Positions 4,332-43,946 of a stretch of DNA of 64,000 nucleotides are shown piece by piece (within the stretch, counting starts at the first letter, position 1; each line of letters begins with the position of its first letter). The position numbers and the translations under genes are program-made. The notes under the pieces were generated by a model, which was given only the letters and a program-made list of their open reading frames with translations, had not been told where the DNA came from and made no database searches. Source of the DNA: Clostridium massiliamazoniense (GTDB lineage: Bacteria; Bacillota; Clostridia; Clostridiales; Clostridiaceae); assembly GCF_001403635.1 (NCBI RefSeq), contig NZ_LN879466.1, forward strand, positions 124,001-188,000, written 5' to 3'.

Positions 4332-4344
4332 ACATCTAAAAAGA

Positions 4345-4633
4345 AAAAGACGTTGATTAGGAAAAGTAATTGTTCACTGTATTTTCAGAGAGTGCTTGGT
4401 TGGTGAAAAAGCATAGTACACTTCAATGAAAATCACCTATGAGTTGGTAGCTGAAAAGGTTTCTTATTAAGTTTACACGTTAGCTCGCGTTAAGAGATAG
4501 GATATGTTGGTATCTGAAATTACAATCAATATACTTTATACTTTTGAAAGAATATTAAATTTATATATTGGTTATTCACCATGGGTGGTTTATCGAGTTT
4601 ATTACTCGTCCTATTGTAGGACGAGTTTTTTTT
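4345..4633 (+). promoter_or_regulatory. T-box riboswitch leader with terminator
   Basis: Stem I hallmarks are visible: AGAGAG at about 4387 followed by TTGGTGAAAA, then CACC..GAG..CTGAAA on the 3' side. The T-box core GGGTGGT lies at 4583-4589. It is followed by a terminator: ACTCGTCCT (4604-4612) pairs with AGGACGAGT (4618-4626) before a run of T. Such leaders read the charging state of one tRNA and permit readthrough when it is uncharged. The specifier lies within TTGGTAG (4444-4450). GTA (Val) or GGT (Gly) are candidates and I cannot decide between them. The controlled gene is the permease at 4889. Confidence 0.88.
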
Positions 4634-6457: not shown

Positions 6458-6491
6458 TTATCATATCGATAAAAATTTATCAATATGATAA
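6458..6491. promoter_or_regulatory. Tandem palindromes: candidate upstream activator sites for the dpaL operon
   Basis: TTATCATATCGATAA (6458-6472) and TTATCAATATGATAA (6477-6491) have centres 19 bp apart. They lie about 107 bp upstream of the -24 element at 6582, the usual distance for an activator that loops to sigma-54 polymerase. The whole can also form a hairpin. The rest of the gene-free stretch 6269-6650 holds only AT-rich sequence and the promoter at 6581. Confidence 0.72.
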
Positions 6492-12363: not shown

Positions 12364-12460
12364 TTTATATTTTAAAAGTAACAGATAGCTTGTAAGTAAT
12401 TCATTGCTTAAAGATAAATTTCTTGCTTAAAAATAAGTTTTTATAATTGAAAAATTATAA

Positions 12461-12582
12461 AATGTTCATTAGTAAGAAAATAATTTTTGTTTTATATAGT
12501 AAGAATTATTTTCTTGAATTCCTAACCATAATCTTAAAATTTTAAAATAAACAAATTAAATTAAACAAATTAAATGAACATT
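12461..12582. other. Nested inverted repeats in the ridA-PQ-loop intergenic region
   Basis: AATGTTCATT (12461-12470) is perfectly complementary to AATGAACATT (12573-12582). Inside it, AAGAAAATAATT (12474-12485) pairs with AATTATTTTCTT (12504-12515). The gene-free stretch 12364-12715 contains only this structure and the leader RNA at 12619. Possible roles are a terminator for the dpaL operon or part of the leader fold. Confidence 0.5.
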
Positions 12583-12618
12583 TAAGATAAAACTAAAAAT
12601 TAATTCGTAAAACGAAGG

Positions 12619-12715
12619 GAGGGACTTGCTTTCATTGTTCTGATCCTAAGCCCAAAACAGTTTGAATTATAAATTATTTAAAGGTTTATCATTAGGAAGG
12701 AAGCAAGGGTGCTAT
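12619..12715 (+). ncRNA. Structured leader RNA, copy 1, of the PQ-loop genes (candidate riboswitch)
   Basis: GGGAGGGA is followed by CTTGCTTTC (12625-12633), which pairs with GGAAGCAAG (12699-12707). An inner CCTAA/TTAGG helix stacks on it. The 3' strand runs directly into the ribosome binding site (AAGGG) and the start GCTATATG. Copies at 19993 and 21007 keep the flanking bases but change both strands of the helix together, which supports a real RNA structure. Pairing that ends at the ribosome binding site suggests translational control. The ligand is unknown. Confidence 0.65.
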
Positions 12716-13012
12716 ATGAGCGGTTTACATGAATTCGGAACAGTTGTAAATATAATAGGAGGAATCCTATTAGCATACGGATATTTGCCTCATTTATATA
12801 GTCTAATAAAAACAAAAAATCCAGGAAATAATAGTGTACAATATTGGGTCATAATGACATTTGGTATATTCTGCATAGGTGTTAATCAATTTATAAATAA
12901 ATTACCAAAAGTTCAATTAGTTACTCAGAGTTTCAATGTTGGTTTAGCTTTCATTTGTACAGTAGTTTTAATTTACTACGTCCAAAAAAACAAGAAAAAA
13001 GTGAATGCTTAA
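12716..13012 (+). CDS. PQ-loop (SemiSWEET-like) transporter subunit, pair 1 first member
   Basis: The 98-residue protein has three predicted membrane helices and one PQ-loop repeat. The usual PQ is PH here (GYLPHLYSLIKTKNPG), followed by a YWVIMTFG helix. SemiSWEETs work as dimers, and a second PQ-loop gene starts 29 bases downstream, so the two may form a heterodimer. I chose ATG 12716 (MSGLHEFG), preceded by AAGGG; upstream in-frame codons fall in the leader RNA and are not conserved. Its place between purine genes suggests transport of a purine, a breakdown product or a related small molecule rather than sugar (inference). Confidence 0.85.
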   Translation: MSGLHEFGTVVNIIGGILLAYGYLPHLYSLIKTKNPGNNSVQYWVIMTFGIFCIGVNQFINKLPKVQLVTQSFNVGLAFICTVVLIYYVQKNKKKVNA

Positions 13013-13041
13013 TATTATTATTTTAAAAGGAGTTGTTTAAG

Positions 13042-13332
13042 ATGGATATGTATTTCTGGGGAAATGTTGCACAAGTATTAGGAAGTTGCACATTAGTTTA
13101 TGCGTATTTTCCACAAATTTATAGATTATTTAGATCAAAGGATGCAGAAGGAATGAACCTACAATTCTGGACTATACTAACTATAGGTTTGTGTTGTATA
13201 GCAATTAATTTAACAATAAGTGACGTTAACCTATTTATTCAAGGTACTCAATGGTTTAATGTACTATTAGCATTTATTGTATTAGTATTATCAATAACTT
13301 ATAAAAGAAATAAAAAAGCACATGCACATTAA
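13042..13332 (+). CDS. PQ-loop (SemiSWEET-like) transporter subunit, pair 1 second member
   Basis: The 96-residue, three-helix protein has the motif AYFPQIYRLFRSKDAEG, then FWTILTIG and a last helix ending in KRNKK. ATG 13042 has AAAGGAG at 13026-13032; an upstream TTG in frame lacks a site. It resembles the second member of pair 2 (20420) more than its own neighbour, so the pair duplicated as a unit. A strong hairpin ends the unit. Confidence 0.85.
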   Translation: MDMYFWGNVAQVLGSCTLVYAYFPQIYRLFRSKDAEGMNLQFWTILTIGLCCIAINLTISDVNLFIQGTQWFNVLLAFIVLVLSITYKRNKKAHAH

Positions 13333-13367
13333 TTTATCTTTAAAACATGTGAAAATATTTAAAATAT

Positions 13368-13429
13368 ATTAATAATAAAAATACTCAAATTTGATTGCAA
13401 AATCTTATGAGAGTATTTTTATTATTAAT
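13368..13429 (+). terminator. Long hairpin terminator after PQ-loop pair 1
   Basis: ATTAATAATAAAAATACTC (13368-13386) is a perfect 19-bp match to GAGTATTTTTATTATTAAT (13411-13429). The 3' arm is itself T-rich, so termination or attenuation before yqeB is likely. Confidence 0.65.
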
Positions 13430-13469
13430 ATCATACTTTTAGCAAGAATAGGTAAAGGAGAGCGGAAAC

Positions 13470-14306
13470 ATGGCATATAATAAGGAACTTGTAGTGGTAA
13501 GAGGTGGAGGAGATATCTCCACTGGAACAATACAAAAGATAAAGAGAGCAGGGTTTAAGGTAGTGGTTTTAGAAAGTGAAAAACCAACAAGTATAAGAAG
13601 ACATGTTTGCTTAAGTGAAGCTATATATGATGGTGAAGCAACTGTAGAGGATATAAAGGCTATAAAAGCTAATAATTTATCAGATATAGAAAGAATATTA
13701 AATGAAGGTAATATAGCAATAGCTGTAGATGAAAAGGGAGAATTTATAAATAAATTAAAGCCCATAGCAGTTATTGATGCTATTCTTGCAAAGAAAAATT
13801 TAGGAACTAATAGAAATATGGCACCTATAACTATAGGATTAGGTCCTGGATTTGAGGCTGGAAAAGATGTTGATGTTGTTGTTGAGACTATGAGAGGACA
13901 TAATTTAGCAAGACTTATATTTGAAGGGAAACCTATGGATAACACAGGGGTTCCAGGAGAGATAAAAGGAGTTTCTAAGGATAGAGTAATATATAGTGAA
14001 AATGAAGGAATAATAAAAAATATAAGTAAGATAAGTGATTCTGTGAAAAAAGGCGAAGTTATTGCTAAAATTGGAGAAAAAGAAGTTAAGGCAACTATAG
14101 ATGGGGTTTTAAGAGGATTAATAAGAGATGGATTCTATGTTAAAGAGGGCTTAAAAATAGCAGATATAGATCCAAGAGCTAGTGAGAAAAACAATTGCTT
14201 TACAATATCAGATAAAGCAAGAAATGTGGGAGGCGCATCTCTAGAAGCACTTTTAATAATGCTAAATAGAAAAAATCCCTATCAATATGATAATAAGAAT
14301 AATTAA
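13470..14306 (+). CDS. yqeB: Selenium-dependent molybdenum cofactor protein YqeB
   Basis: The 278-residue protein belongs to the YqeB/EF2563 family, found only with selenium-dependent molybdenum hydroxylases. Visible features are VVVRGGGDISTGTIQKIKRAG near the N-terminus (a Rossmann-like loop), ETEKPTS-like VLESEKPTSIRRHV, and ITIGLGPGFEAGKDVDVVVETMRGH. A lipoyl/biotinyl-like hairpin domain follows (about 175-225, KGEVIAKIGEKEV). It is thought to help load labile selenium on the cofactor; the mechanism is not established. AGGAGAG precedes the start. It is followed by activator palindromes and a terminator. Confidence 0.92.
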   Translation: MAYNKELVVVRGGGDISTGTIQKIKRAGFKVVVLESEKPTSIRRHVCLSEAIYDGEATVEDIKAIKANNLSDIERILNEGNIAIAVDEKGEFINKLKPIAVIDAILAKKNLGTNRNMAPITIGLGPGFEAGKDVDVVVETMRGHNLARLIFEGKPMDNTGVPGEIKGVSKDRVIYSENEGIIKNISKISDSVKKGEVIAKIGEKEVKATIDGVLRGLIRDGFYVKEGLKIADIDPRASEKNNCFTISDKARNVGGASLEALLIMLNRKNPYQYDNKNN

Positions 14307-14376
14307 CAAGAAAATACTTGAAATTAAAGGCGATTTTTAAATTATCAATTTGATAATTTAATTATTAAATTGATAA
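14279..14376. promoter_or_regulatory. Three palindromes: candidate activator sites for the ssnA operon
   Basis: CTATCAATATGATAA (14279-14293, inside the end of yqeB), TTATCAATTTGATAA (14342-14356) and TTATTAAATTGATAA (14362-14376) share the motif seen at 2181 and 6458. The second and third have centres 20 bp apart and lie about 99 bp before the -24 element at 14458. Confidence 0.7.
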
Positions 14377-14379
14377 TTT

Positions 14380-14424
14380 AAGGCATCAAAGAAATATAAA
14401 AAGGGTTTCTTTGATGCCTTTTTT
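14380..14424 (+). terminator. Terminator of the yqeB transcript
   Basis: AAGGCATCAAAGAAA (14380-14394) pairs perfectly with TTTCTTTGATGCCTT (14406-14420), followed by a T-run. It separates yqeB from the sigma-54 promoter of ssnA. Confidence 0.9.
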
Positions 14425-14456
14425 AACGTAGAAGGGCTAAAAATAGAGGTTTTACT

Positions 14457-14471
14457 TGGCATGTTAATTGC
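14457..14471 (+). promoter_or_regulatory. Sigma-54 (-24/-12) promoter of the ssnA-hydA-xdh operon
   Basis: TGGCATGTTAATTGC fits TGGCA-N6-TTGC with the exact 12-bp GG-to-GC spacing. It lies 88 bases before the ssnA start and directly after a terminator, as expected for a new transcript start. Confidence 0.85.
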
Positions 14472-14558
14472 GACAATAATAATTAATAAAAGTTTAATAA
14501 AAAAATAACACAGATAAATTTTTGAATTTTGATTTTATTATGAGTTGGAGGGATTTTA

Positions 14559-15887
14559 ATGGTTATTATAGGGAACGGTGTTGTAGTAACAAGAGACGAC
14601 AACAATACCTTTATAAAAAATGGAGCTGTTGCTGTAGATGGTAGCAAAATAATAGAAGTAGGTACAGTAGAAGAGATCAAAGGAAAATATAAGGATGCTG
14701 AATTTATTGATGCTAAAGGTAATTTAATAATGCCAGGATTAATTAATACACATCATCATATTTATAGTGCTTTTGCTAGGGGATTAAACCTAAATAATCC
14801 TCCAGCAAAAGGATTTATAGATATTCTAGAAAATATGTGGTGGACAATAGATAAAAAATTAACTTTAGAAGATGTTAAGTATAGTGGTTATACAACTCTT
14901 ATTGATTGTATCAAAAATGGTGTTACTACAGTTTTTGACCACCATGCAAGTCCATATGCTATAGAAAATAGCTTATTCACATTAGCTGATGTTGCAAAGG
15001 AAGTTGGAATAAGAGGTTCTTTCTGTTATGAAACATCAGATAGAGATGGTGAAGCTATTACAGATGCCGGAATTAAGGAAAATGTAGAATTTATAAAATA
15101 TGCAAATAAAGAAAATTCAGATATGGTTAAAGGTATGTTTGGATTACATGCTCAATTTACATTAAGCGATAAAACTTTAGAAAAATGTGCTAAAGAAATG
15201 GAGAGCTTAGATGCTGGATACCATGTTCATACAGCAGAAGGAATAGATGATTTACATCATTGTTTAAAGGAACATGGTAAAAGAGTAGTTGAAAGACTTA
15301 TGGACTTTGATATTTTAGGAGAAAAAACTCTATCAGTTCATAACCTTCACATTAATTCAAGAGAAATGGATATTTTAAAAGAAACAAAGACAAACTTAGT
15401 TAACAATCCAGAATCAAATATGGGAAATGCAGTTGGTTGTGCTCCTGTAATAGAAATGATGAAGAGAGGATTAAATGTTGGTCTTGGAACAGATGGATAT
15501 ACAAGTGATATGTTTGAATCAATGAAAGTAGGAAACTTAATTCATAAACATAATCTTTGTGATTCTAATGTAGCTTGGGGAGAAGTTCCAAAAATGTTCT
15601 TTGAAAATAACAGAGATATTGCATCAAGACATTTTAATGCAGAAATAGGAGCATTAAAACCAGGAGCCGTAGCAGATATTATTGTTGTTGAATATGATCC
15701 ATTAACACCTATGGATGCTAGCAATATAAATTCACATTTATTATTTGGAGTTAACGGAAAAAGTACATTAACAACTATGGTAAACGGAAAAGTTGTTATG
15801 AAAGATAGAATTTTATTAACTTTAGATGAAAAAGAAATATTTGAAAAATCTAGAGAAGTATCAAGTAAATTATGGTCAAGATTCTAA
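14559..15887 (+). CDS. ssnA: Aminohydrolase SsnA
   Basis: The 442-residue amidohydrolase-superfamily protein has metal motif INTHHHIYSAFARGL (about residues 65-80), a later FGLHAQFTLSD, YHVHTAEGIDD, VHNLHIN and NPESNMGNAVG, and LGTDGYTSDMFES (catalytic Asp). SsnA proteins always sit near selenium-dependent xanthine dehydrogenases, and an amidine- or amino-group-hydrolysing step on a purine-derived ring is inferred. It is first after a sigma-54 promoter and 35 bases before hydA. GGAGGG precedes the ATG. Confidence 0.93.
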   Translation: MVIIGNGVVVTRDDNNTFIKNGAVAVDGSKIIEVGTVEEIKGKYKDAEFIDAKGNLIMPGLINTHHHIYSAFARGLNLNNPPAKGFIDILENMWWTIDKKLTLEDVKYSGYTTLIDCIKNGVTTVFDHHASPYAIENSLFTLADVAKEVGIRGSFCYETSDRDGEAITDAGIKENVEFIKYANKENSDMVKGMFGLHAQFTLSDKTLEKCAKEMESLDAGYHVHTAEGIDDLHHCLKEHGKRVVERLMDFDILGEKTLSVHNLHINSREMDILKETKTNLVNNPESNMGNAVGCAPVIEMMKRGLNVGLGTDGYTSDMFESMKVGNLIHKHNLCDSNVAWGEVPKMFFENNRDIASRHFNAEIGALKPGAVADIIVVEYDPLTPMDASNINSHLLFGVNGKSTLTTMVNGKVVMKDRILLTLDEKEIFEKSREVSSKLWSRF

Positions 15888-15922
15888 GTAATTAGAATCA
15901 TAAGCCTTATGGAGGAATAAAT

Positions 15923-17323
15923 ATGGGCACTATATTATCAGGAGGAAGAATTGTAACTCCACAGGAAACAATAAATGCTGATATTAAATTTGAAAATGGC
16001 ATTATAGTAGCCATAGAGAAAAATATTAAAGCGGAAGAAAATGATGAAGTTATTGCTATCAATGGTTCTTATGTATTACCTGGAGCAATAGATACACATA
16101 CACATTTTGATTTAGATACAGGTGTTATGAAAACAGCTGATGATTTTAAAACAGGAACTTTAGCTGCTATAGCAGGGGGAACTACTACTATTCTTGATTT
16201 TGCAACTCAAGATAAGGGTGATAGTTTAGAGAATGCCCTAAAAGTTTGGCATGAAAAGGCTCGTAATGTATCTTTTTGTGATTATGGATTTCACATGGCT
16301 ATAACTGATTGGAATGAAAAAACTTCAAAATCAATGGAGCAAATGATTAAAGATGGGGTTAGCTCATTCAAGATGTATATGGCTTATAAAGGAACTTTAC
16401 AAGTTGATGATGGTGAAATATATGAAGCTTTAAAGAGAAGTAAAGAAGTAGGAGCAATTATAGGTTTCCACTGTGAGAATGGAGATATGGTTGTTGAACT
16501 TGCTAAGGAACATATAAATAAAGGTTTAGTAGCTCCAAAATATCACCCACAATCAAGACCAAGTGAGTTAGAGGCAGAGGCTATTTCAAGGGTTACTAAA
16601 ATTGCTAAATTAGCAGATTCACCTTTGTATGTTGTTCATTTAAGTTCAGAAGAAGGATTAAAAGAAGCTAGAGAAGCTAGAAAAAATGGAGTTAAAGTTT
16701 ATTTAGAAACTTGTCCACAATACCTTTTATTAGATGATTCAAGTTATGAAGGAACAGCTGAAGATAGCTTTAATGGTGCAAAATATGTAATGTCTCCACC
16801 TTTAAGAAAGAAAAAAGATGGAGTTGCATTATGGAATGCTCTAAAAGATGGAGAAATTGAAGTTACAGGTACAGACCATTGTTCATTTAATTATAAAGGA
16901 CAAAAGTCTGTAGGAAAGGATGACTTCAGAAATATACCAAATGGTGGTCCAGGTGTAGAACATAGATTACTTTTAATGTATCAACATGGAGTTATAGAAA
17001 ATAAGTTTTCTATAAATAAATTAAGTGAATTATTATCTACTAATGCAGCTAAGTTCTTTGGTATGTATCCTAAAAAGGGAATAGTACAATGCGGAAGTGA
17101 TGCAGATTTAGTAGTTTTAAATCCTAATAAAGATTTTGTTATAAGTTCAAAAAATCAACATCAAAATGTTGATTACACACCTTATGACGGTTATAGGATA
17201 GATGGAAATATAGACTATGTGTTCTTAAGAGGTGAAAAAGTTATTTTAGATAATAACTTAAACATTAAAGAACCAAAAGGTAAGTATGTACAGAGAAATT
17301 CTTTTAAAGGAGGTTGTTTATAA
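15923..17323 (+). CDS. hydA: Dihydropyrimidinase / D-hydantoinase family ring-opening enzyme
   Basis: The 466-residue protein has the cyclic amidohydrolase pattern: GAIDTHTHFDLD with two metal histidines (about residues 57-59), the lysine expected to be carbamylated in SSFKMYMAYKG (about 150), HCENGDM, YVVHLSSEEG and GTDHCSFN. It hydrolyses cyclic amides, here probably a purine-derived imidazole or hydantoin ring (inference). In E. coli the related YgeZ lies in the equivalent cluster. GGAGG precedes the start. The stop overlaps the xdh start by one base (TAATG), showing translational coupling. Confidence 0.93.
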   Translation: MGTILSGGRIVTPQETINADIKFENGIIVAIEKNIKAEENDEVIAINGSYVLPGAIDTHTHFDLDTGVMKTADDFKTGTLAAIAGGTTTILDFATQDKGDSLENALKVWHEKARNVSFCDYGFHMAITDWNEKTSKSMEQMIKDGVSSFKMYMAYKGTLQVDDGEIYEALKRSKEVGAIIGFHCENGDMVVELAKEHINKGLVAPKYHPQSRPSELEAEAISRVTKIAKLADSPLYVVHLSSEEGLKEAREARKNGVKVYLETCPQYLLLDDSSYEGTAEDSFNGAKYVMSPPLRKKKDGVALWNALKDGEIEVTGTDHCSFNYKGQKSVGKDDFRNIPNGGPGVEHRLLLMYQHGVIENKFSINKLSELLSTNAAKFFGMYPKKGIVQCGSDADLVVLNPNKDFVISSKNQHQNVDYTPYDGYRIDGNIDYVFLRGEKVILDNNLNIKEPKGKYVQRNSFKGGCL

Positions 17324-19890
17324 TGTACGAATTTATTTTAAATGGCGAGAAAGTAACAGCAGAAGAAAATGAGAAGTTATTACATTTCTTAAGAGATAAA
17401 AAAGGTATTTTATCAGTTAAAAATGGCTGTGATGAGGGAGCTTGTGGAGCTTGTACTTTACTTATAGATGGAGTTGCAACTAAGTCTTGTGTACAAACTT
17501 TAGAAAGAATCAACGGAAAAACAGTTACAACAATAGAAGGATTTACTGAAAGAGAAAAGGAGGTATTTGCTTATGCCTTTACTGAAGCTGGAGCAGTTCA
17601 ATGTGGATTCTGTATACCAGGTATGGTTGTGTCTGCAAAAGGACTTTTCAATAAAACTTTAAATCCAACAGCTGATGAAGTTAAAAAAGCATTAAGAGGT
17701 AACATATGTAGATGTACAGGTTACGTAAAAATTGAAGATGCCATAATGCTAGCTGCTGAAATTTTTAGAGAAAATAAAGAAGTACCTCGTAGATCTTGTA
17801 AAGGTATTATAGGAGAAAATGCACATAAAGTTGATGCTCATGATAAGACTTTAGGAACAGCAAAATATGCTGATGATTTATATTTTGATGGAATGCTTTA
17901 TGGTAGTGCATTAAGACCAGAATATGCAAGAGAATTAATTAAAAAAATAGATACTTCTAAAGCTGAGTCTATGGATGGAGTTTATGCTGTTGTAACAGCT
18001 AAAGATATCCCTGGAAAAAGATATATAGGTCACTTAAAACAAGATTGGCCAGCACTTATAGCTGAAGGAGAAGAAACAAGATATATAGGTGATGCTTTAG
18101 CTTTAGTAGCAGCTAGAGATAAAAAGACATTAAAAGAAGCTTTAAATGCCATAGAAGTTGATTATGAAAAGTTAGAACCTGTAACAACTATTGAAGATGC
18201 TTTAAAAGCAGGTGCACCTAAGGTTCACGAAACAGGAAACTTATTAGTTCATGAACAACTAAAAAGAGGAGATGCAGATAATGCTATAAAAAATTCTAAG
18301 TTTGTTTATGAAGAAGATTTTGTTGTTCCACCAACAGAACATGCTTTTATGGAGCCAGAAGCTGCTGTAGCAAGATATGAAGATGGAATATTAACTGTTT
18401 ATACAGGTGGACAAGGTATCTATGATGAAGTTCATGAATTATGTAATTTATTAGGATTAACAGACAAAGAGTTAAGAATAAAAAGTATGTATGTAGGTGG
18501 AGGTTTTGGTGGTAAAGAAGATATGAGCGTTCAACACCACGCTGCATTACTTACTTATGTTACTAAAAAACCTGTAAAGGTTGTTTTATCTAGACAGGAA
18601 AGTTTAAATATACATCCAAAAAGACATATGATGAAGATGCATTTCACTGTTGGATGTGATGAAAATGGAATATTACAAGGAATGAAGGCTGAGATATTAT
18701 CAGATACTGGTGCTTATGCATCACTAGGTGGACCAGTTCTTCAAAGAGCATGTACTCATGCAGGCGGACCATATAATTTCCAAAATGTAACTGTTGATGG
18801 AAAGGCGCTTTATACTAATAATCCACCAGGTGGAGCATTTAGAGGATTTGGTGTTACTCAATCAGCCTTTGCAATGGAATGTTGTATGAATAAACTAGCT
18901 GAAATGGTAGGAATATCAGGTTGGGAAATCAGATATAGAAATGCTATAAAACCAGGTCAAGAATTATCAAATGGACAAATAGCTGATGAAGGTACAGCTT
19001 ATGTTGAAACTTTAGAAGCAGTTAAAGATGTATATGAAAATAATAAAATTGTTGGTATTGCATCAGCATTTAAAAATGCTGGAGTAGGTGTTGGAGTTCC
19101 TGATATAGGAAGATGTAATCTTGCTATTATAGATGGAAAAGTTCATGTTAGAAGTTCAGCTGCTGATATAGGACAAGGTATCATGACAGTTACATCACAA
19201 ATAGTAGCAGAGATAACTGGATTACCTCAAGATTCATTAATCGTAGAGAGACCAGATAGTTTACTAACTCCTGATGCTGGTACAACAACAGCTTCAAGAC
19301 AAACTGTATTTACAGGGGAAGCTACTAAGGTTGCAGCATTGAAACTTAAAAAGGCAATGGAAAGTAAAACTTTAAATGAGTTAAATGGAGAAATATTCAA
19401 AGGTGAATATTCTGGAGTTACAGACCCAATGGGTTCAGATAAACCAAATCCAGTAAGCCATATTGCTTATGGATTTGCAACACAAGTAGTAGTGCTAGAT
19501 GAAACTGGTAAGCTTGTAAAAGTCGTTGCAGCCCATGATGTAGGTAAAGCAATAAATCCTCAAGGTGTTGAAGGACAAATTGAAGGTGGAGTTACTATGG
19601 GACTTGGTTATGGATTAACAGAAGACTTTCCTACAAAGGATGGTGTTCCAGCAGTTAAATATGGAACATTAGGATTAATGAGATCAATATCTGTTCCAGA
19701 AATAGTTCCAATAATAATAGAAAAAAATAAAGCAGAGTTAAGCTTTGGAGCAAAGGGTGTTGGAGAAATTGTTTGTGTGCCAACAGCACCAGCACTTCAA
19801 AATGCTTATTATAAGTTAGATGGTATATTTAGAACAAAATTGCCACTTGATGATACTGCATATAGAAAGAAAAAAGTAGTAAAGAAATAA
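17323..19890 (+). CDS. xdh: Selenium-dependent xanthine dehydrogenase, fused iron-sulfur and molybdopterin subunits
   Basis: The 855-residue fusion has an N-terminal 2Fe-2S ferredoxin domain (GCDEGACGACTL, about 40-51) and a second 2Fe-2S motif (CGFCIPG with CRCTG, about 95-130). The molybdopterin-binding domain begins near residue 165, with YVGGGFGGKED, PPGGAFRGFG, GQGIMTVTSQ and a C-terminal GAKGVGE with the presumed catalytic Glu. There is no FAD domain. It oxidises purines such as xanthine, with a labile Se ligand on Mo inferred from its YqeB/YqeC/MocA neighbours. ATG 17323 is preceded by AAAGGAGG. Confidence 0.93.
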   Translation: MYEFILNGEKVTAEENEKLLHFLRDKKGILSVKNGCDEGACGACTLLIDGVATKSCVQTLERINGKTVTTIEGFTEREKEVFAYAFTEAGAVQCGFCIPGMVVSAKGLFNKTLNPTADEVKKALRGNICRCTGYVKIEDAIMLAAEIFRENKEVPRRSCKGIIGENAHKVDAHDKTLGTAKYADDLYFDGMLYGSALRPEYARELIKKIDTSKAESMDGVYAVVTAKDIPGKRYIGHLKQDWPALIAEGEETRYIGDALALVAARDKKTLKEALNAIEVDYEKLEPVTTIEDALKAGAPKVHETGNLLVHEQLKRGDADNAIKNSKFVYEEDFVVPPTEHAFMEPEAAVARYEDGILTVYTGGQGIYDEVHELCNLLGLTDKELRIKSMYVGGGFGGKEDMSVQHHAALLTYVTKKPVKVVLSRQESLNIHPKRHMMKMHFTVGCDENGILQGMKAEILSDTGAYASLGGPVLQRACTHAGGPYNFQNVTVDGKALYTNNPPGGAFRGFGVTQSAFAMECCMNKLAEMVGISGWEIRYRNAIKPGQELSNGQIADEGTAYVETLEAVKDVYENNKIVGIASAFKNAGVGVGVPDIGRCNLAIIDGKVHVRSSAADIGQGIMTVTSQIVAEITGLPQDSLIVERPDSLLTPDAGTTTASRQTVFTGEATKVAALKLKKAMESKTLNELNGEIFKGEYSGVTDPMGSDKPNPVSHIAYGFATQVVVLDETGKLVKVVAAHDVGKAINPQGVEGQIEGGVTMGLGYGLTEDFPTKDGVPAVKYGTLGLMRSISVPEIVPIIIEKNKAELSFGAKGVGEIVCVPTAPALQNAYYKLDGIFRTKLPLDDTAYRKKKVVKK

Positions 19891-19915
19891 AAAACAATAT
19901 TGCAATTATAGAAAC

Positions 19916-19947
19916 TGGGGAAAGTTACGGTGATCGTACTTTCCCCA
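19916..19947 (+). other. GC-rich hairpin after xdh, without a T-run
   Basis: TGGGGAAAGT (19916-19925) pairs perfectly with ACTTTCCCCA (19938-19947). The following bases are ATATAAAG, so a standard terminator is unlikely. It may stabilise the xdh mRNA end or mark a processing site before the next leader RNA. Confidence 0.55.
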
Positions 19948-19992
19948 ATATAAAGAAATCCACTAATAGTCAACAAATTTATTTGAAGTAAG

Positions 19993-20110
19993 AGGGGAGG
20001 AACTTATTTCTAAATAAATTAACAGTTACGTTATGAAAACTATTAGTGTTTGCTACTTTATAAGTTTTTAGTGCTGTGAATGTTTTCTTATATTTAGAAA
20101 TAGGGCTAAA
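19993..20110 (+). ncRNA. Structured leader RNA, copy 2, of the PQ-loop genes
   Basis: GGGGAGGAACT leads into TATTTCTAAATA (20005-20016), which pairs over 12 bp with TATTTAGAAATA (20091-20102). GGGCTAAAATG follows at once, giving the ribosome binding site and start of the gene at 20111. Compared with copy 1 the helix sequence is different but still paired. The inner loop is longer and only weakly structured. Confidence 0.6.
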
Positions 20111-20395
20111 ATGAATGGAATTCAAACATTTGGATTTTTATTAAATATTTTTGGAGGATTCCTATTAATATCAGGATATATTCCACAAATAGGTAGATTA
20201 TATAAATCAAAGTCTCCAGGGAATAACAGTCCACAGTATTGGACAATAATGACTTTCGGAATTTTTTGTGTAGGTATTAATCAGGCTATTCGTGGTGTAC
20301 CAACAATTCAATTAATGATTCAATGGTGTAATATTTTTCTTGCTTTAACATGTACTACTTTAATACTACGTTATAGCGCTAAAAATAAAAATTAA
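20111..20395 (+). CDS. PQ-loop (SemiSWEET-like) transporter subunit, pair 2 first member
   Basis: The 94-residue, three-helix protein is similar to the 12716 product throughout: NIFGGFLLISGYIPQIGRL and SKSPGNNSPQYWTIMTFGIF. Here the PQ motif is intact. The start ATG lies 6 bases after the GGG that ends the leader RNA. The second member begins 24 bases after its stop. Likely part of a heterodimeric transporter linked to purine use (inference). Confidence 0.85.
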   Translation: MNGIQTFGFLLNIFGGFLLISGYIPQIGRLYKSKSPGNNSPQYWTIMTFGIFCVGINQAIRGVPTIQLMIQWCNIFLALTCTTLILRYSAKNKN

Positions 20396-20419
20396 TTGAA
20401 GTTGATGGGGGTAAAGATC

Positions 20420-20731
20420 ATGGATAAGTATTTAATAGGGACTATAGCTCAGGTATTGGGAAGTTGCACACTTATGTATGCATATTTTCCACAAATTATA
20501 AGATTACTAAAGACTAAAGACGCTACAGGGGTTAGTCCAAAGTTTTGGTCTAAATTAACTTTAGGATTAAGTTGTGTTGCAATTAATTTGACTATAAGTA
20601 AAGTAAATATTTTTATACAGTGTACTCAATGGTTTAATGTTTTCCTAGCATTTACTGTGTTAATGCTAGCTATAAAATATAAACCAACTTCTGAAGAATC
20701 TAAAAATAAAGAAATTGAATTAGAAGCTTAA
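20420..20731 (+). CDS. PQ-loop (SemiSWEET-like) transporter subunit, pair 2 second member
   Basis: The 103-residue protein has the motif AYFPQIIRLLKTKDATG, a KFWSKLTLGLS helix and a charged tail. It aligns with the 13042 product (GTIAQVLGSCTLMYAYFPQ against GNVAQVLGSCTLVYAYFPQ). ATG 20420 follows a GGGGG site 8 bases upstream; an in-frame TTG at 20396 is less likely. Confidence 0.85.
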   Translation: MDKYLIGTIAQVLGSCTLMYAYFPQIIRLLKTKDATGVSPKFWSKLTLGLSCVAINLTISKVNIFIQCTQWFNVFLAFTVLMLAIKYKPTSEESKNKEIELEA

Positions 20732-20739
20732 AAATAAAG

Positions 20740-20782
20740 ATATTATTTAAAGAAATTTGTGGATTTTCACTTTAAATAATAT
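20740..20782 (+). other. Hairpin after PQ-loop pair 2
   Basis: ATATTATTTAAAG (20740-20752) pairs perfectly with CTTTAAATAATAT (20770-20782). Without a T-run it is a weak terminator at best. The gene-free stretch 20732-21571 also holds the start-stop site at 20918 and the third leader RNA at 21007; the remaining 21190-21571 is AT-rich with nothing recognised. Confidence 0.5.
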
Positions 20783-20917
20783 TGTAAAAACTTAATAATG
20801 TTAATGAATCTGTAATTTAAAAGATGCTATGGATTTAATAATACTTTATATAAATTTATTTTATCTATAATCAAAAGTTATTATTAATAGCTTTAATAGA
20901 ATCTATAAAGTTATTTT

Positions 20918-20938
20918 AAGGAGGTGAGGAAAATGTAA
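20918..20938 (+). other. Perfect Shine-Dalgarno followed by ATG-TAA (start-stop)
   Basis: AAGGAGGTGA is followed at ideal distance by ATG (20933-20935) and at once by the stop TAA (20936-20938). It is either the remains of a lost gene or a minimal start-stop unit that could hold a ribosome upstream of the third leader RNA. Confidence 0.45.
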
Positions 20939-21006
20939 TACCTAGATTAGGTAAGAAAGTATTTTAACAAAATGTGTAGAGTTGTTAAAAGAACAAATTA
21001 CAGAAG

Positions 21007-21188
21007 GGAGGGACTTATTTCTAAAGTTCGAAGCTAAATATTATAGCTTATAGAAATAAGGGTGCTATATGAGTGGTCTACATGTATACAGAACTATGAA
21101 AGATAATAATATTATCATGTATATAAAAACAATTTTCTACAAAGATTTTCAAAACTTTAGGAAATTACACCCAAAATACAATTCATAA
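21007..21188 (+). pseudogene. Third leader RNA copy followed by an aborted PQ-loop gene start
   Basis: GGGAGGGA then CTTATTTCTA (21014-21023) pairs perfectly with TAGAAATAAG (21051-21060), with an inner AAGCTA/TAGCTT helix. GGGTGCTATATG follows exactly as in copy 1. The frame starting at 21069 begins MSGLH, the same five residues as the 12716 protein, then diverges into an unrelated 34-residue tail ending at 21188. I read this as a leader left after loss of its PQ-loop gene, or a stand-alone RNA. Confidence 0.6.
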
Positions 21189-21571
21189 AATTTTAAATTA
21201 TTTAGAAATTTGATTTTTGTTTTTTAATGCTAATTATTAGAATGCGGCGTATAACTTACAAAGATAACTCTGATAATTTAAGATTAAGATTCTAATAATT
21301 TAAAATTTATTATGGATGTAGAAAATGCTAATTAATATATTTTTATAAGTAGAATAAGATTTAAACAAATTTACTTTGTTTAATACTTAAATTTATTAGT
21401 CTATAATCATGTAAGTTAGTACCACATTTATAAGATTAAATGCACAGTTTAAAACAAACTATTGTGCTACAAATTATTATTTTAAATTAAAGGTTTTTAT
21501 TGTAATTGAAACACTATATAACCTTTAATATAAAAAATGTTTGTGAAACTTTTAAATTGGAGGTATAGACT

Positions 21572-31628: not shown

Positions 31629-31642
31629 GTGGAGGTGATATA

Positions 31643-43345: not shown

Positions 43346-43577
43346 AGTTACTACATTACTTAATTTTATATAGGTTATATTAATTTGGAATTGTAGATTT
43401 TTAGAATGTAAATGTTTTAAAAAATTAACAATAATTATAATATTAATATAGTAAACTATAAATAATGGGTAAGATATTAATTAAAAATAGGGGGAGGTGA
43501 CTGTTGTTTAGGGATTATAAGTTTAGAAAAATAAGGTGAGTTTTCTGAATTTATAGGAACCTAACAACGGGTATACA

Positions 43578-43946
43578 GTGAAAAAATTAGATGGAAAGAA
43601 TTTTGTTGTTTTTAAAGCTCATAATCTTTTAGCTATTGATAAAGATGGGTTTTCAGATTATATCTATAATTTGGGGGAAACTATAGATTTTAGAATATAT
43701 GATTTAGCATCCCTATTGTTTGCTATAAGATTAAGGGTTTTAGCTTTCAGAAATCAAGAGTGTAGAATAATAGATAAGGTTTTAGAATCAGAAGTTATGA
43801 AAAATAGTAATTTTTCAGAAGTTGATGAAATTTTAAAAAAAGCTTTAAGAAATGAAGAAATACTTTTTGAAGAAAGAGAAAAATATGCATCATATATAAT
43901 GAATTATTTAGAGGAAATAGCTGAAGAACTAGAATTTAAAATCTAG
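43578..43946 (+). pseudogene. Internal fragment of glucuronate isomerase (uxaC remnant)
   Basis: The 122-residue frame aligns with the middle of the intact UxaC next door (about its residues 170-285). It has NFVVFKAHNLLAIDKDGFSD against NFVVAPTFRPDNIIKIRKDG, then YNLGETIDF against GNLGEASKS, and EILKKALRNEEILFEEREKY against RIFKKALNNEEITLEEEEKY. Both catalytic ends are missing and it has no ribosome binding site. A decayed duplicate of uxaC is the best reading. Confidence 0.85.

Follow-up and report, generated by a model that had tools for sequence, protein, structure and literature searches.

The window analyzed here is a stretch of 64,000 nucleotides (nt) from Clostridium massiliamazoniense (contig NZ_LN879466.1, positions 124,001 to 188,000), the plus strand of which carries three related leaders, two of them directly in front of tandem pairs of small putative transporter genes. 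Each leader consists of a 5′ purine block, a stem, which we call helix P1, and an ATG. In copy 1, the block GAAGGGAGGGA (12614..12624) is followed by P1 at 12625..12707, a covarying hairpin in which 12625-12633 is paired with 12699-12707 (CTTGCTTTC/GGAAGCAAG, 9 base pairs (bp) including one G-U), and then by the 3′ flank GGTGCTAT (12708..12715), which extends up to the start codon. The block of copy 2 is GAGGGGAGGAA (19992..20002), and its hairpin at 20003..20104 pairs 20003-20016 with 20091-20104 (CTTATTTCTAAATA/TATTTAGAAATAGG, 14 bp including one G-U). Copy 3 again starts with GAAGGGAGGGA (21003..21013), followed by a hairpin at 21014..21060 in which 21014-21023 is paired with 21051-21060 (CTTATTTCTA/TAGAAATAAG, 10 bp, no G-U). 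All three stems stop 6-8 nt ahead of an ATG. A first-pass annotation, which had been made from the letters of the window, placed the start of copy 1 at 12619; the block is present, but it begins at 12614, with GGGAGG at 12617. The conserved blocks described there are also partly retained, since the 5′ purine block occurs in the three copies, whereas the last block, GGGTGCTATATG, is common to copies 1 and 3 only and reads GGGCTAAAATG in copy 2.

Copies 1 and 2 are each followed by a tandem pair of genes, all on the plus strand, which encode proteins of 94-103 residues. The first gene of pair 1 (12716..13012) is predicted to encode a SemiSWEET-like half-transporter, and the second (13042..13332), which has an ordinary proximal Shine-Dalgarno (SD) sequence, a PQ-loop protein (PF04193, 5.5e-07). 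In pair 2, the first gene (20111..20395) is 52% identical to the first gene of pair 1, and the second (20420..20731) also matches PQ-loop (PF04193, 0.00013). The first protein of each pair matched no Pfam model at E <= 0.001, with P0003 reaching only E 0.83 against PQ-loop, and a profile built from the four pair proteins matched SemiSWEET structures (4rng, E 5.7e-06). The predicted PQ-loop/SemiSWEET identity of the pairs is, hence, drawn from the partner genes and from the profile of all four proteins. Copy 3 is followed by an open reading frame (ORF) of 39 codons (21069..21188, plus strand), the opening five codons of which are shared at the protein level (MSGLH) with the copy 1 gene, while the remainder is unrecognizable. 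The 499 nt behind the start of this ORF retain no recognizable resemblance to either of the two transporter pairs, with scores equal to the shuffle mean. Copy 3 seems to be an orphan leader that lost its gene, and the earlier description of the leaders as preceding PQ-loop genes applies to copies 1 and 2, but not to copy 3.

Conservation of helix P1

Relatives were sought through the proteins and not through the RNA. The first PQ gene was found in 3/68 genomes of the genus (L001 and L002 counted among the three), and the further genomes that carry it are Eubacterium multiforme (L002), a Clostridium metagenome-assembled genome (L001), and L009. The leader is present in all three, and the orthologous leaders together with the three window copies give a set of six leaders from four genomes. 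In L002, the transporter pair lies directly ahead of a gene that by eye resembles xdhA, and in L001 and L009 one extra small gene, by eye for a membrane protein, stands in between (at approximately 1030-1275 and 1188-1436, respectively). Copy 3 occupies the corresponding place in the window and, hence, may mark the ancestral position of the transporter pair. When the protein profile was applied to 206 genomes of the family, six matched, three of which are outside the leader-bearing group with one match each (E 1.5e-11 to 2.0e-7); the leaders analyzed for two of these, L012 and L013, showed ordinary-looking SDs, and the L014 gene lies on the minus strand. A search of genome contigs for extra leaders gave none with one protein as the query and two loci with a two-protein alignment, and no further leaders were found in viral contigs or plasmids.

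In the six-leader alignment, P1 is a helix of nine pairs that is paired in 54/54 cells, and four of the nine pairs are changed on both sides, each in one or two sequences. The covariation score was matched by none of 500 shuffles and the count of doubly changed pairs by one of 500, while control helices slid along the alignment paired in 49-69% of cells. RNAalifold recovered the identical nine pairs unaided. The three covarying leaders noticed in the first-pass annotation are, thus, borne out, and the check that it had proposed, a covariance model compared with clostridial genomes and Rfam, was performed with six leaders; the covariation holds in this wider alignment and no characterized class was matched.

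These results also bear on the idea that the leader is a transcription attenuator or a functionless inherited repeat. The copies inside one genome are paralogous, as such an origin would have it; the compensatory changes and the conservation over four genomes argue against it, as do the lack of a U-run after P1 and a terminator scan without a site there, and we regard this explanation as extremely unlikely.

The 5′ block and its distance from the start codon

The tail of the 16S ribosomal RNA (rRNA) was taken from the genus because it was found in none of the three leader genomes searched; the end reads ...GGATCACCTCCTTTCTA, the complement of which is AGAAAGGAGGUGAU, and is exact in 16/67 genomes, including G019 and G051, which are discussed below, and the end TGGATCACCTCCTTTCTA occurs in 16/67 genomes of the genus. 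The 5′ purine block, GAAGGGAGGGA in five of the six leaders and GAGGGGAGGAA in one, contains (A)GAAGGGAGG, which matches the complement of this tail with one G-U. Its pairing energy with the tail is -14.9 to -16.2 kcal/mol in 6/6 leaders (in separate calculations for the window, -16.2 for copy 1, -14.9 to -15.6 for copy 2, and -16.2 to -16.5 kcal/mol for copy 3), as compared with +0.4 to -12.9 and a median of -8.6 kcal/mol in the last 15 nt before 34 other gene starts in the window, which were taken from the ORF list. GG(U/A)GCU stands just ahead of the AUG in five of the six leaders, and the nucleotides conserved outside the helix can for the most part pair with the 16S rRNA tail.

This strong SD is not followed by a gene of its own. 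No start codon opening 25 codons lies in reach of the SD in any of the six leaders; in copy 1, the stretch 4-15 nt downstream holds a single start codon, a TTG that opens two codons, and none was found at this distance in copies 2 and 3. The 5′ block, 55-110 nt from the AUG, thus amounts to a very strong SD that lacks a start codon it could use. P1 is separated from it by 2 nt in 6/6 leaders and from the AUG by 6 nt in four leaders and 8 nt in two, and counting across the closed hairpin places GGAGG 8-10 nt from the AUG; in 27 of the 34 window genes, the SD spacing is 6-11 nt. The mean unpaired probability predicted for the 5′ block is 0.74-0.88, which indicates that P1 leaves the main SD open.

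We consider it probable, based on the sequences and their comparison, that the leader is a split, or ‘accommodated’, ribosome binding site for the first transporter gene, with the hairpin acting as a bridge. The 16S rRNA tail would pair with the extended SD (A)GAAGGGAGG, as the complementarity indicates, and P1, for which the covariation argues, would fold away the gap between the SD and the AUG and bring the two to the working distance of 8-10 nt instead of 55-110 nt. The 30S subunit may then accommodate P1 and start the first transporter gene at the AUG, by analogy with genes 25 and 38 of phage T4. Translation should, under this mechanism, require folded P1, which is the reverse of a hairpin that hides an SD. 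The bridged site is most likely conserved and was most likely duplicated along with the transporter genes.

An extension of this mechanism is that the folding of P1 assembles the SD itself across a three-way junction (GGGAGGUG) and that an early GAAG/YUUC hairpin makes this assembly a switch, which a signal of the purine/selenium island may set. GGGA-GGUG across the joined flanks reads GGGAGGUG in 4/6 leaders, with a pairing energy of -19.2 when joined against approximately -16 for the 5′ flank alone; the gain is small in L001 and absent in copy 2. We give this extension a small chance.

The GAAG/YUUC pairing is also central to the opposite arrangement, in which the 5′ strand of P1, an anti-SD look-alike (CUUAUUUCU/CUCACUUCU), masks the 3′ strand, which is rich in purines, together with a portion of the proximal SD; pairing with the upstream GAAG in an alternative hairpin would release the SD, the balance being set by a thermometer, a protein, or a small RNA. 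The 3′ strand of P1 is SD-like in leaders W1 and L002, the alternative pairing is possible in 6/6 leaders (24/24 cells, against 50-79% for slid versions), and the first 27 nt of the leaders fold alone at -1.8 to -6.6 kcal/mol. However, the alternative hairpin does not covary (500/500 shuffles were as good), P1 covers just the first three bases of the AAGGGUG nearest to the AUG (in W1 and L002, a further SD-like stretch too), and the much stronger 5′ SD is left open at the unpaired probabilities given above. An SD-hiding hairpin, accordingly, appears quite unlikely to us.

The purine island and searches of other genomes

The leaders lie at translation starts within an island of purine and selenium genes, as had been stated previously and as the sequence and the island genes confirm. 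The island proteins include a YgeY-type hydrolase, YqeB, SsnA, a dihydropyrimidinase-like enzyme, a selenium-dependent xanthine dehydrogenase, and XdhA, and YqeC and MobA-like proteins are also encoded. These genes make up a cluster for the selenium-dependent degradation of purines or urate, like those described in the excerpts available of PMC12507026 and PMC11448449. Within these excerpts, the word ‘riboswitch’ appears in neither paper, ‘SWEET’ does not appear in PMC12507026, and ‘PQ-loop’ does not appear in PMC11448449. The palindrome TTATCAANTTGATAA was found in the window with up to one mismatch at 2181-2195, 6477-6491, 14342-14356, and 14362-14376, with 0.11 expected, and also upstream of the leader in L002, near 3483; it is perhaps the operator of an island regulator. 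Sigma-54-like sites in the window were two-mismatch matches only (18 found, 9.3 expected), and a promoter scan of the window remained at the chance level (61 found, 56.7 expected).

The covariance model of the six leaders recovered exactly three copies in the window, at 77, 76, and 50 bits, with the next best match at 13.4. Against 225 genomes, 49 genomes gave a match at E <= 1; the three strong matches are model-building sequences, which match by construction, and the rest were L018 in G051 (1.9e-4) and matches in 45 genomes at 0.0056-0.99. The sequence was read for 25 of the 30 loci fetched (L016, L017, L022, L023, and L033 being excluded), and ORFs were listed for L018 and L019, the latter match preceding an ORF that resembles enolase by eye. 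Against 391 genomes, a set that overlaps the former by at least one genome, three new matches were obtained at E <= 0.01, two of which lie within ORFs and the third of which, L047, lies ahead of an ORF that is preceded by its own, ordinary-looking SD; the strict filters of these searches lose weak matches. Rfam 15 was also applied to the whole window at the gathering score, and no family matched the leaders, in agreement with the first-pass annotation, which had not matched them to a known class. The sole match at this score was a T-box leader at 4344-4505 (94.4 bits against 93), upstream of an amino acid permease gene. A permissive Rfam search (E <= 10; 12400-12800 and 19880-21300) gave six sub-threshold matches only; the one over copy 1, to a trypanosomatid mitochondrial rRNA model, scored 21.6 bits where the gathering score is 60 (E 0.0095) and was taken as chance.

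The first-pass annotation had interpreted the leader as a translational riboswitch, with a purine, a purine breakdown product, molybdate, or a selenium compound as the candidate ligand. A covarying, conserved leader at a start codon, its place in the purine/selenium island, and its absence from Rfam at the gathering score are all compatible with this view, and the leader resembles translational riboswitches in being a structured element that adjoins a transporter gene at its ribosome binding site. Unlike those elements, it has no conserved aptamer-like core: P1 encloses 29-84 nt within its nine pairs, no conserved unpaired nucleotides were found in this interior across the six leaders, and the conserved bases are largely SD and complementary to 16S rRNA, with the main SD not buried by P1. 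A pseudoknot between the 5′ flank and the loop would be sterically unlikely because there is no linker before P1. Copies before other purine genes were looked for because a riboswitch would be expected there too, and no convincing leader of this kind was present among the matches read from the 225 and 391 genomes, which also speaks against the purine ligand. Based on the present evidence, the leader is not a new riboswitch class, and we judge such a function to be very unlikely.

Probable bridged ribosome binding sites and comparable known systems

An independent case was provided by the best match of the covariance model outside the PQ genes, L018, at the same place as L052 in G051, which lies ahead of a gene for a small Cys-rich protein starting with MPAGNGVNC; in G051, this gene is upstream of one that by eye is serA-like. 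The MPAGNGVNC protein was found in 192/218 genomes, and 70 of its leaders were read in batches of 30 and 40. In 68 of them, no distal SD reaches -13 (the strongest is -9.8), and the SD spacing scatters over 4-15. In the other two, a distal extended SD of -16.0 (G051, L052) or -16.3 (G019, L056) precedes a hairpin with a stem of 7 bp, one of them G-U, or of 8 bp, and 9 nt separate the end of the hairpin from the AUG. When a 24-nt window before the start was scored, this bridged pair had the weakest proximal SDs of the 70 leaders (-5.7 and -4.2, the third weakest being -9.3), and over 16 nt, a length too short for SDs with long spacers, G019 was still the weakest in the batch of 30. A distal bridged SD, therefore, accompanies a weak proximal SD, as expected if the distal SD initiates. 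The proximal AGGAGG is intact in three similar leaders and reads AGUAGG in G019; the alignments fit an exact insertion of the hairpin and a change from AGGAGG to AGUAGG equally well, and neither path is claimed. A 7-bp stem bridged a random distal position to a given ATG in 41 of 2823 trials.

Several observations weigh against a bridged ribosome binding site. The comparison covers six leaders from four genomes, and the evidence for P1 is comparative because the folding energies of single sequences are unexceptional (z -0.1 to -2.2); moreover, the number of further pair types in P1 is not higher than in shuffles. The stretch to be folded away is 47-102 nt, as compared with spacings of 27 and 22 nt in T4. 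The leaders also have an SD-like stretch near the AUG (-5.6 to -9.1 in the last 15 nt), from which initiation is therefore possible, and over 24 nt this proximal site reaches -12.4 in W1 and -10.4 in L002 because the 3′ strand of P1, inside the helix, is purine-rich. Regarding the MPAGNGVNC leaders, the ranking of proximal SDs depends on the window, since five ordinary leaders in the batch of 30 are weaker than G051 (L052) over 16 nt, and G051 had been picked for resembling the model, which leaves G019 (L056) as the only one of the two bridged leaders not selected for structure. Strong SDs are also not confined to the leaders: eight sites at or below -14 occur in the window, namely, the three leaders and five more, and 800 kilobases (kb) of three genomes contain 58 strong SDs, 27 of which have no proximal start.

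Among the five other sites in the window, those at 31629, 59490, and 40991 (minus strand, -15.6) have a start codon in reach; the last was dropped from one SD scan that used an extra purine filter. The strongest SD of the window scan (20917-20938, -17.0), approximately 65 nt before copy 3, is followed 8 nt later by an ATG-TAA start-stop pair. At 43489-43946, a strong SD has an 8-bp stem behind it and then a TTG opening 11 codons; the ORF that follows matches UxaC at positions 183-291 of 464 only, and this gene has probably decayed. Only the two PQ leaders are bridged among the 27 lonely SDs in the 800 kb, as compared with 0/31 of the other strong SDs and 287 of 20,000 random positions. Bridging is uncommon, and another explanation is needed for most strong SDs that stand alone.

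One such explanation is the STAB-SD, known from cry3A of Bacillus thuringiensis; according to the excerpted text of PMC4113751, this is a distant SD-like sequence to which the 16S end can bind although it does not direct initiation. Applied to the present leaders, the 30S subunit on the extended SD would block a 5′ exonuclease or wait in standby, the weak proximal GGGUG would initiate, and P1 would merely separate the two. The 5′ block resembles the described STAB-SD in being an SD-like 16S complement far from the start, its transcription as a 5′ untranslated region being assumed; a proximal SD-like stretch is present, many strong SDs lack a proximal start (27/58 in the 800 kb), and structured standby sites are known, including the accommodated hairpin of thrS (excerpt of PMC3936740). 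What this explanation leaves unaccounted for is a covarying stem at a fixed 2 nt from the SD and 6-8 nt from the AUG, a feature that the excerpted description in PMC4113751 does not contain, as well as the combination of a distal SD and a weak proximal SD in the unrelated MPAGNGVNC gene. The proximal spacing in L001 and L009 is, furthermore, just 4 nt. We consider a STAB-SD or standby role to be unlikely, while allowing it some weight.

If the bridged ribosome binding site is confirmed, start-site predictors limited to the last 20 nt would overlook sites of this type, and it would pay to re-examine the strong ‘lonely’ SDs of Firmicutes as possible bridged sites or STAB-SDs. Covariation in a leader that ends at a start codon does not by itself imply a riboswitch, and comparing the conserved flanks with the end of the 16S rRNA is an inexpensive initial check. 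We found no chromosomal family of bridged ribosome binding sites backed by compensatory changes in the open-licence papers searched.

In the thrS messenger RNA (mRNA) of Escherichia coli, the SD lies between the hairpin and the AUG, and the part upstream of the hairpin is single-stranded and serves for standby. The present leaders differ from this arrangement in that the strong SD lies upstream of the hairpin. They would share with thrS that a cellular mRNA has its ribosome binding site interrupted by a hairpin, which the ribosome accommodates in thrS, and structured standby sites have been documented (PMC3936740, in excerpt).

The closest comparison is with T4 genes 25 and 38, in which, as given in the excerpt of PMC3014915, a hairpin shortens the distance between the SD and the AUG from 27 to 11 nt and from 22 to 5 nt, respectively; destabilizing the hairpin lowers initiation, and the structure of gene 25 is kept among T-even phages. 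In contrast to these genes, the leaders described herein are known from sequence alone, reside on a bacterial chromosome, in several copies in the genome of the window, and have much larger and variable loops, extended complementarity to 16S rRNA, and compensatory changes across genomes. The arrangement is the same in both cases, with an SD too distant from its AUG and an intervening hairpin that restores a working distance, from 55-110 to a predicted 8-10 nt in the present leaders, which on layout would place them among the split ribosome binding sites of the T4 gene 25 and 38 type.

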